A DNA stretch of 64,000 nt from Hyphomicrobiales bacterium (GTDB taxonomy: Bacteria > Pseudomonadota > Alphaproteobacteria > Rhizobiales > Aestuariivirgaceae), in assembly GCA_025359215.1 (NCBI GenBank), contig JANYHE010000123.1, positions 62,001 through 126,000 on the forward strand. The letters are read 5' to 3'. The stretch's first letter is position 1. Each line of letters opens with the position of its first letter. Below the pieces are notes generated by a model. The model was not told the DNA's origin, did not search any database, and was given only the letters and a program-made list of their open reading frames with translations. Shown here in pieces: positions 13,561 through 45,053 of this stretch. Both the position numbers and the translations under genes were made by a program.

Positions 13561-13667
13561 GGGACCTCATCCGCCCCGTTGGGGCACCTTCTCCAAAGGA
13601 GAAGGGCGATGTCCAAATTCACCCTTCTCCTTTGGAGAAGGTGTCGCGAAGCGCCGGATGAGGTCCC
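13561..13667. repeat. Palindromic intergenic element, subfamily A copy 1 (RIME-like)
   Basis: Perfect 13-bp terminal inverted repeats GGGACCTCATCCG...CGGATGAGGTCCC; two internal hairpins CCTTCTCC-AAA-GGAGAAGG (13587-13605) and CCTTCTCC-TTT-GGAGAAGG (13623-13641). Confidence 0.9.
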
Positions 13668-13687
13668 TTCACGCAGGTAGCACCAAC

Positions 13688-28476: not shown

Positions 28477-28620
28477 CTTCTCCTTCCTCGCAGCGCGGGG
28501 AAGGTGGATCGCGTTAGCGAGACGGATGGGGACTTCGGAGTTAAATTTTTGATTTCGAGCCACCCCATCCGCCCCAAGCGGGGCACCTTCCCCGCGCTGC
28601 GGAGAAGGATAAGAAAGGGA
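28477..28620. repeat. Palindromic intergenic element, subfamily B copy 1 (left flank of DUF559 gene)
   Basis: CTTCTCCTTCCTCGCAGCGCGGGGAAGGTGGATCGCG...CCACCCCATCCGCCCC...CACCTTCCCCGCGCTGCGGAGAAGG. Confidence 0.9.
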
Positions 28621-28627
28621 GAGTTTT

Positions 28628-28954
28628 ATGGCCAATGAGATCGCCCGATCTTTAAGAAAACGCATGACTCCCCACGAGGTCAAACTCTGGCAACAATTGC
28701 GCTATCTTGAAGGCCATCACTTCCGTCGCCAAGTTCCCATCGGTCCCTACATCGTGGATTTCGCTGAGAAGACTGGAAAACTTGTGATCGAAGTCGATGG
28801 TTCGCAACATGGTGAAGCGCCGAATTTGACCAACGATGCAGCGCGTGATCAGTATCTTAAAAACAAAGGTTTCAAAGTTCTACGGATTTGGAACATTGAA
28901 GTTGATCAAAATATGAGTGGTGTGATTGATACGATATTGCTGGCGCTGAAATAG
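28628..28954 (+). CDS. DUF559 endonuclease-domain protein (Vsr-like fold)
   Basis: ARSLRKRMTPHEVKLWQQLRYLEGHHFRRQVPIGPYIVDFAEKTGKLVIEVDGSQHGE; typical DUF559 signature. Confidence 0.92.
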   Translation: MANEIARSLRKRMTPHEVKLWQQLRYLEGHHFRRQVPIGPYIVDFAEKTGKLVIEVDGSQHGEAPNLTNDAARDQYLKNKGFKVLRIWNIEVDQNMSGVIDTILLALK

Positions 28955-28960
28955 CTTTTT

Positions 28961-29096
28961 TCTCCTTCCTCGCAGCGCGGGGAAGGTGGATCGCGCAGCG
29001 AGACGGATAGGGAGCTCGGTGTTAGATTTTTTTATTTCGAGCCGCCCCATCCGGCGCAAGTGCGCCACCTTCCCCGCGCTGCGAGGAAGGAAAAGA
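28961..29096. repeat. Palindromic intergenic element, subfamily B copy 2 (right flank of DUF559 gene)
   Basis: TCTCCTTCCTCGCAGCGCGGGGAAGGTGGATCGCG...ATTTCGAGCCGCCCCATCCGG...CCACCTTCCCCGCGCTGCGAGGAAGG; same orientation as copy 1 including the non-palindromic centre. Confidence 0.9.
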
Positions 29097-29107: not shown

Positions 29108-29995
29108 CTAACTCAACTTTGCAGCTAAAAATGCTTTCACATTGTCTTCATGCACACGCTCATAAGGCGCGTATAAATTCACCCAGCCCATTTGCAGCGG
29201 CCCGGCGATCAATTCAGTGAGTGGCTTTGCCCGCAGCTCCGGTTCACTCGCGCAGCGCTTCAACATGCGAATATATTGTTGCGTGGCGCGGATGAAGGTT
29301 TTTTCATAACCACCCAGTGCAATAATTTCAGGGTCGCCATGGTTGGGTAAAATTTGGGCAGGGGCCAGCGCCCATAGGCGGTCCAAATCGGCTAGATGCG
29401 TTTCGAACTGTTCGGGTTCGCCCACATAGGTGATGGTATCTTCCATGGTGTCGCCTGCCAGCAAAATCTCTGGCTCGTCAATCCACACCACACTCGCATC
29501 ATCGCTGTGAATGTTGCATTCAATAAATGTGAGCTTCAGTGCCCCCACTTGAAAGCTCATCTCACCTGAAAAGGTTTGCGTGGGCATCACGAGGGGGTTG
29601 ATGACCGGCAGACCATGATAGCTGCCATCTTCAATGCCCGCTGTGTGTTTCAATAAATGCGCTTCAGTTTTTGTGTTGGCGATAATCACACAATCGGCAA
29701 AAGCCGCAGTGCCCGCCACATGGTCCAAGTGCCAATGGCTGAGCAGCACCGTGATTTTAGTCACTCCACGTGCTTCCAAAAATTTCCGAATGAACGCCGC
29801 ATGTTCGAGCGACACATGCGTGTCATAAACCAGCGCTTCGCCACCATCGACAATGGCATAGCTGGCAATGCCCAGCGACAACGCGCCATTATCCACCCAG
29901 TTTTCTTCCGGCATGAAGCGATAGCCTTCCACCCGCCCATCATAAAACGCAAAGATTTTTTCATGGGGTGTGAGCACGCGTAAATGTGGCAACAT
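29108..29995 (-). CDS. MBL-fold metallo-hydrolase
   Basis: VLLSHWHLDHVAGTAAF HxHxDH motif, ILPNHGDPEII; start at internal MLPHLRV preferred. Confidence 0.92.
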   Translation of the reverse strand: MLPHLRVLTPHEKIFAFYDGRVEGYRFMPEENWVDNGALSLGIASYAIVDGGEALVYDTHVSLEHAAFIRKFLEARGVTKITVLLSHWHLDHVAGTAAFADCVIIANTKTEAHLLKHTAGIEDGSYHGLPVINPLVMPTQTFSGEMSFQVGALKLTFIECNIHSDDASVVWIDEPEILLAGDTMEDTITYVGEPEQFETHLADLDRLWALAPAQILPNHGDPEIIALGGYEKTFIRATQQYIRMLKRCASEPELRAKPLTELIAGPLQMGWVNLYAPYERVHEDNVKAFLAAKLS

Positions 29996-30657
29996 TAAAT
30001 CAAACTCATTTGGGGTGAAGGGGGTTTGGGCGGTGGCGCGTTGCGGGCAATGGTGGTGGGCTCCATCACCCAATAATCATCCGGTGGCGCTTTGAGTAAA
30101 TCCTGCACCTGCTCTTCAGTGCCATCCAACCAGCGATCAAAATCTTGAGGAGGGATCACCACCGGGCTGCGATCATGAATCGTGGCCACAGGTAAATTCG
30201 GCTCGGTCGTCAGCATGGCAGCGGATTCTAATTCCGAACCATCAGCCCCCATCCAATGTTCCCAAAGGCCACCAAAAGCAAAAAGCGAATGATCGGGCCG
30301 ATGAATGAAATAGGCCTGCTTTTTGCCAGGCACATCACCTTGCCATTCATAAAACCCATCGGTTGGGAAGAGGCAGCGCCGCCTGCGAATAGCATTTTTA
30401 AATGAGGGCTTTTCATAAACTGTCTCAACGCGCGCATTGATGAGGGGGCGGCCCGGCTGCACCTCTTTCACCCAAGAGGGAATGAAGCCCCAGCGCACCA
30501 AATCCAAATGCCGCTGCTTGTCGGGACCTTGGCGCACGATGGCAATAGGGCTGCCGGGTGTCACATATTGACGTGGCGGATAAACATGGCCGTCAATAAA
30601 TTTGAACAGCGCCCTTGCTTCATCAATAGATTTACGGAAACTATATAGACCACACAT
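29995..30657 (-). CDS. SOS response-associated peptidase (YedK/HMCES-like)
   Basis: MCGLYSF Cys2 start, NARVETVYEKPSFKNAIRRRRCLFPTDGFYEWQ, HDRSPVVIP. Confidence 0.95.
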   Translation of the reverse strand: MCGLYSFRKSIDEARALFKFIDGHVYPPRQYVTPGSPIAIVRQGPDKQRHLDLVRWGFIPSWVKEVQPGRPLINARVETVYEKPSFKNAIRRRRCLFPTDGFYEWQGDVPGKKQAYFIHRPDHSLFAFGGLWEHWMGADGSELESAAMLTTEPNLPVATIHDRSPVVIPPQDFDRWLDGTEEQVQDLLKAPPDDYWVMEPTTIARNAPPPKPPSPQMSLI

Positions 30658-41899: not shown

Positions 41900-42003
41900 A
41901 CCTCATCCGGCCTTCGGCCACCTTCTCCAAAGGAGAAGGGCATTTGTTTGAATTCACCCTTCTCCTCTGGAGAAGGTGCCCCGAAGGGGCGGATGAGGTC
42001 CCT
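41900..42003. repeat. Palindromic intergenic element, subfamily A copy 2 (RIME-like)
   Basis: ACCTCATCCGG...CCTTCTCCAAAGGAGAAGGG...ACCCTTCTCCTCTGGAGAAGGT...GGATGAGGTCCC; matches 13561-13667. Confidence 0.9.
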
Positions 42004-42008
42004 TTGGT

Positions 42009-44917: not shown

Positions 44918-45053
44918 CTTATCCCTTTTCGCGAAGCGGGGAGGGTGGATCGCGAAGCGAGACGGGTGGGGAGTTTATAGTCGGATACTGTATTCGTTGC
45001 TGCCACCCCATCCGGCGCAAGAGCGCCACCTTTCCCGCTAGCGGAGAAGGAGG
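44918..45053. repeat. Palindromic intergenic element, subfamily B copy 3
   Basis: CTTATCCCTTTTCGCGAAGCGGGGAGGGTGGATCGCGAAGCGAGACGGGTGGGGAG...CCACCCCATCCGGCGCAAGAGCGCCACCTTTCCCGCTAGCGGAGAAGG; same layout as 28477 and 28961 copies, divergent centre. Confidence 0.85.

Follow-up and report, generated by a model that had tools for sequence, protein, structure and literature searches.

DUF559 nuclease genes enclosed by palindromic repeats: a candidate miniature mobile element

The window, by which we mean the whole 64,000-nucleotide stretch of DNA analysed here, carries a small DUF559 endonuclease gene enclosed by two palindromic repeats. This arrangement is general across many phyla and not local to the window, and genome comparisons show, as far as sequences can, that the repeat-DUF559-repeat unit has been mobile over evolution. 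We consider it likely that the unit is a miniature mobile element of ~0.5–0.65 kb, whose nuclease targets its own palindromes and drives the spread. Bacterial genomes commonly contain short palindromic repeats, and the DUF559 unit may account for a large class of intergenic repeats in bacteria for which no mobilising enzyme is known. A 2013 survey had a candidate mobilising enzyme for the GTAG class only (PMC3733652).

The DUF559 gene of the window and its flanking palindromes

The window gene (28628..28954, ATG to stop, + strand) encodes a 108-residue protein that matches PF04480 with E=6.7e-33. A possible ribosome-binding site, GGGAGAG (28617..28623, + strand), was recognised upstream by reading the sequence. 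The left palindromic unit (28477..28612, unstranded) consists of two inverted half-units with a short centre between them, and its DNA fold was calculated at -49.3 kcal/mol; the right unit (28960..29096, unstranded) is of the same family and in the same register. The two units are 87% identical over 138 aligned bp in direct register, and their single-strand folding exceeded that of shuffled sequences (z -8.8 for the left and -10.3 for the right). The first-pass annotation had placed the gene between two palindromes with 7-bp gaps on each side; both units and the gene are present, but the gaps measure ~15 bp on the left and ~5 bp on the right. Its description of the flanks as direct repeats holds for the window gene but is not a general rule, since most of the other DUF559 loci have inverted half-units on their two sides. 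Each unit is a palindrome made of two half-units, so that the window gene is also enclosed by an inverted pair, namely the inner half-units of its two palindromes. The third repeat copy without a nuclease, which had been reported at 44918, was located by its sequence match to the flanking units at 44918..45051 (unstranded). A match of the Rfam family MIR1858 was discarded as a hairpin resemblance far below the gathering score.

The gene occupies an intergenic position, with no intron, intein or conserved coding site, between glyS (end 28472) and a metallo-beta-lactamase-fold gene (29108-30073, minus strand). Among the genomes compared, glyS adjoins a metallo-beta-lactamase-fold gene only in the genome of the window. 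That genome (3.02 Mb, 148 contigs) contains 19 near-full copies of the window repeat, ~17 of them solo, and the two units flanking the gene are each other's best match (86.6%) among the 19. The solo copies lie mostly between predicted genes, one of them just outside the window. The host genome has two further DUF559 genes, each inside a different palindromic repeat family: one, between cysS and a citramalate-synthase-like gene, lies within CTTCTCCC...GGGAGAAGG repeats, and the other is enclosed by CCCTCTCCCC...GGGGAGAGGG repeats. Thus, each paralog is accompanied by its own repeat family.

An AlphaFold2 model of the window protein had a mean pLDDT of 88.7. The best PDB matches of the predicted fold were 3hrl and the homing endonuclease I-Bth0305I (E=3.8e-5), with E. 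coli Vsr weaker; a sequence profile supported the matches to 3hrl and I-Bth0305I (E=3e-5 for the latter). The invariant columns among DUF559 relatives include E17, D44, E55, D57 and H61. The protein does not pass the Vsr family model TIGR00632 (16.5 bits against a cut-off of 97.85), and among known defence proteins it had no full-length match, just short partial ones to larger proteins.

Repeats flanking DUF559 and GIY-YIG genes across genomes

To examine how often DUF559 genes have repeats on both sides, we compared 250 bp on each side of a gene by local alignment in direct and inverted orientation, and counted a score of 20 as a match. In the host's taxonomic family, where the gene bounds were set at the domain ends, the flanks matched at 43 of 53 DUF559 genes and at 3 of 292 background ORFs (non-DUF559 ORFs of these regions and of the window). 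Inverted matches were found for 38/53 true flank pairs, as compared with 17% for randomly paired flanks of different DUF559 loci. Among named genomes, in a set biased towards relatives of the query, 61 of 78 usable DUF559 loci but 3 of 97 neighbouring ORFs had matching flanks, and 58 against 0 had inverted ones (Fisher p ~2e-27); these loci come from Alpha-, Gamma- and Deltaproteobacteria, Gastranaerophilales, Chloroflexi, Ignavibacteriae and candidate phyla. An Alphaproteobacteria-wide sample gave matching flanks at 29/49 DUF559 genes, including 13 of 20 lower-scoring members, with a neighbour background of just 3 ORFs, too small to serve as a test. Hence the concern that DUF559 orthologues might mostly lack flanking repeats was not borne out (43/53, 61/78 and 29/49); genes without matching flanks made up about 20–40% across the three samples.

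A recurrent form of the flanks is CCCTCTCCC-loop-GGGAGAGGG-TnAGGGTGAGGG, followed by the gene and then the reverse of the same. Hairpins with a stem of at least 8 bp were present in 222 of 263 flanks and in 28 of 134 random windows. The outer stem positions of the DUF559 repeats change mainly between C-G and T-A with pairing kept, as expected if the hairpin matters; this evidence is supportive only, because the stems were selected for pairing.

The sole strong inverted-flank match (score >21) among the 292 background ORFs proved to be a small GIY-YIG nuclease gene. Matching repeats on both sides were then found at 22 of 28 GIY-YIG genes of the same genomes (L128-L157; also L074:12941-13315). 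Their repeats, exemplified by GTCATCCCGGC-(A/G)AAA-GCCGGGATCCAG, form a class that differs from the DUF559 repeats. Classification by best flank told the two sets apart in 64/65 cases, and a strict count of the motif CGTCAY/RTGACG on both sides gave 14/30 GIY-YIG and 4/51 DUF559 loci. CGTC-tagged REPs are described as having a CGTC or TGTC tag, a stem starting with AT, a loop of 4-5 and a CCA tail, and were reported, mainly from Alphaproteobacteria, without a dedicated transposase (PMC3733652). As a class the GIY-YIG repeats fit this description, and the palindromes around the small GIY-YIG genes are mostly of this type. The classification shows that the nuclease fold is specific for the repeat class.

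The nuclease and the repeats also co-vary. For non-syntenic pairs from different genomes, protein similarity correlated with repeat similarity (Mantel r 0.21 and 0.29), 0/1000 permutations being as high in each case. The repeats were not equally abundant in genomes without DUF559: among the matches listed, and with relatedness ignored, family genomes had a median of 17 repeat matches with DUF559 and 0.5 without, figures that are a rough guide only because at most 9 candidates were scored per genome and the queries came from DUF559 loci.

These observations bear on the explanation that the DUF559 gene is a passive passenger, which RecA-type recombination trapped or shifted between palindromes that are nothing more than ordinary intergenic repeats or terminators. 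The repeats are indeed abundant, mostly intergenic and able in principle to recombine, and some repeat-rich genomes have no DUF559 (G001, G035, G039 and G047). We nevertheless regard passive carriage as unlikely, given that the only background ORF with strong inverted flanks encodes another small nuclease, that each nuclease fold has its own specific class of repeat, and that protein and repeat co-vary. The coding sequences point in the same direction: dN/dS was 0.05-0.08 among the copies within a single genome, G054, and mostly 0.03-0.18 elsewhere, with 0.05-0.12 for the majority of pairs among copies and relatives, and the DUF559 copies are, as judged from these ratios, under strong purifying selection.

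Of the repeat-rich genomes without DUF559, G001 (22 matches) has neither a DUF559 nor a Y1 gene. It may have lost the nuclease while keeping its repeats.

Movement of the unit and its possible mechanism

Genome G054 has three copies of the unit (L073, L075 and L079), 91-93% identical, at unrelated sites. Homology among them begins ~160 bp before the coding domain and ends ~105-150 bp beyond it; in one copy the ends form inverted repeats of ~105 bp. Homology limited to the element was also found between genomes (L076/L081 and L002/L045/L063/L072). Compared by eye, the G054 copies showed no clean target-site duplication, and the element ends are not crisp because the outer half-units vary.

Occupied and unoccupied forms of the same site were found at two places, and these sites are thus polymorphic for presence and absence, contrary to one of the outcomes that the first-pass annotation had named as arguing against an element. 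At the cysS|cimA site, the gene is present in nine genus members, a solo half-unit stands before cimA in two, and others have neither. Downstream of glyS, where sequences were read by eye, the gene occurs only in the window's genome, ~11 relatives have a solo palindrome of a similar general kind and many have none; because no relative has the unit downstream of glyS, the window insertion is visible only as filled against solo or empty sites in other species. Two further candidates were set aside: the Azospirillum plasmids as strain-level empty sites, since the gene is present in all seven related plasmids, and E. coli strains without ycjD as a clean empty site, since the strains inspected have a different operon beside sapF.

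The second explanation to be weighed is that DUF559 is a selected host nuclease for repair (Vsr-like, of mismatches) or genome maintenance, with hairpins that regulate it or serve as its substrates, and without mobility. Besides the Vsr-like fold and the purifying selection, this has a precedent in Caulobacter VsrA, a DUF559 protein that causes an SOS response upon loss of a solitary cytosine methyltransferase; it is a predicted mismatch-repair nuclease that reportedly interacts functionally with the methyltransferase (PMC12907096), and some DUF559 members may therefore have host roles. As an account of the repeat-flanked genes, however, we find it improbable. DUF559 is very patchy, with 0-9 copies per genome and presence in 94 of 289 alphaproteobacterial genomes class-wide, similar copies occupy multiple unrelated sites, and paralogs in one genome lie within different repeat families. 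It is very unlikely that another enzyme acting in trans, such as a Y1/RAYT transposase, moves the repeats and the unit with DUF559 as cargo, since, although REPs elsewhere are tied to RAYTs (PMC3116915) and 13 of the 43 repeat-rich family genomes have Y1 genes, PF01797 was absent from the host genome, from 55/69 family genomes and from 30 of the 43 repeat-rich ones.

The most likely explanation is that the nuclease targets its own palindromes and spreads both the unit and solo repeats, in a REP/RAYT-like arrangement that employs an unrelated enzyme; cleavage and transposition are steps that we infer. The sole gene of the unit would supply a PD-(D/E)XK nuclease resembling Vsr and homing endonucleases, and this nuclease would recognise the palindromic repeat family at the ends of its own unit. 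It would nick or cut DNA at the repeats, probably during hairpin extrusion of the palindrome, and the whole unit or a lone repeat could then be copied to intergenic sites through repair or strand transfer, giving rise to solo palindromes. The fold, and the fact that no clean target duplication came to light, favour homing-type break-and-copy as the probable route over classical transposition. The first-pass annotation had proposed a nuclease-linked, REP/RAYT-like element with the solo repeats as its dispersed relatives; flank enrichment, element-limited homology, nuclease-repeat co-variation, purifying selection and the filled, solo and empty sites agree with that part. Its terms 'non-autonomous' and 'domesticated' do not fit, as the unit itself appears to be mobile.

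Comparison with known systems and wider meaning

A close parallel is the REPtron, or REPIN-RAYT system, which likewise has one small nuclease gene between palindromic repeats, inverted doublets together with dispersed solo copies, and nuclease and repeat families that co-vary (PMC3116915, PMC3733652). The repeats flanking DUF559 are, as in REPtrons, inverted doublets able to fold as a hairpin. The enzymes differ, DUF559 having a PD-(D/E)XK Vsr-like fold and RAYT being an HUH Y1 transposase. Copy number differs as well: several similar copies of the DUF559 unit exist, while RAYTs are described as having one copy and as apparently unable to move themselves (PMC3116915). Homing endonucleases of the I-Bth0305I/Vsr-like type are the closest mobile-element structure by both profile and fold, with a homologous catalytic domain, but the DUF559 unit resides in intergenic palindromes, many per genome, rather than within an intron or conserved coding site. 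With MITEs and insertion sequences the unit shares terminal inverted repeats (~105 bp in G054; inverted at 58/78 loci) and shorter gene-less relatives; it differs in having no known transposase domain, and no target duplication was evident by eye in the G054 copies. CGTC-tagged REPs (PMC3733652) resemble the DUF559 repeats as dispersed palindromes, mainly of Alphaproteobacteria, without a known enzyme, but the CGTC type flanks GIY-YIG genes here, and the repeats around DUF559 belong to a different class, YTCTCCC...GGGAGAR. In the open-access literature (subscription journals lay outside the search), titles, abstracts and searches yielded no account of the DUF559-repeat association, and there was likewise none of GIY-YIG linked with REPs.

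We give roughly even chances to the broader proposal that the two nuclease-repeat pairs represent a multi-phylum class of minimal mobile elements, in each of which a single-domain homing-type nuclease lies between palindromes of its own class and is specific for them (YTCTCCC repeats for DUF559; CGTC REPs for small GIY-YIG), and that these nucleases, having evolved separately from RAYT, are the missing mobilisers of a large share of bacterial intergenic palindromes. If this is true, two unrelated nuclease folds have converged on one lifestyle, a function can be assigned to DUF559, so far a domain of unknown function, and the question of what mobilises palindromic repeats becomes directly testable.

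In that event E. coli ycjD and the Neisseria protein 3hrl would also be members or relics of such elements. The N. gonorrhoeae gene with a product matching 3hrl has a palindromic repeat on both sides, in direct copies (L248:420-1130). The DUF559 gene ycjD, whose neighbours are sapF and fabI, is accompanied by a decayed half-repeat and by a full repeat downstream (L246:2400-3210, L243). The ycjD region was mostly covered in 3367 of 5426 E. coli genomes, and its downstream repeat occurs at a median of ~6 places per E. coli genome.

Some further observations concern individual genomes and loci. G080, an alphaproteobacterial genome of 3.4 Mb in a single contig, has ten DUF559 matches. The window contains, at 13616-13669 and 41951-42004, two copies of CACCCTTCTCC...GGAGAAGGTG...CGGATGAGG, which is related to the repeat type of the host's cysS|cimA DUF559 gene. 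At L001, L035, L037 and other cysS|cimA loci the DUF559 frame is open into the downstream repeat, and the palindrome may therefore encode a C-terminal tail.
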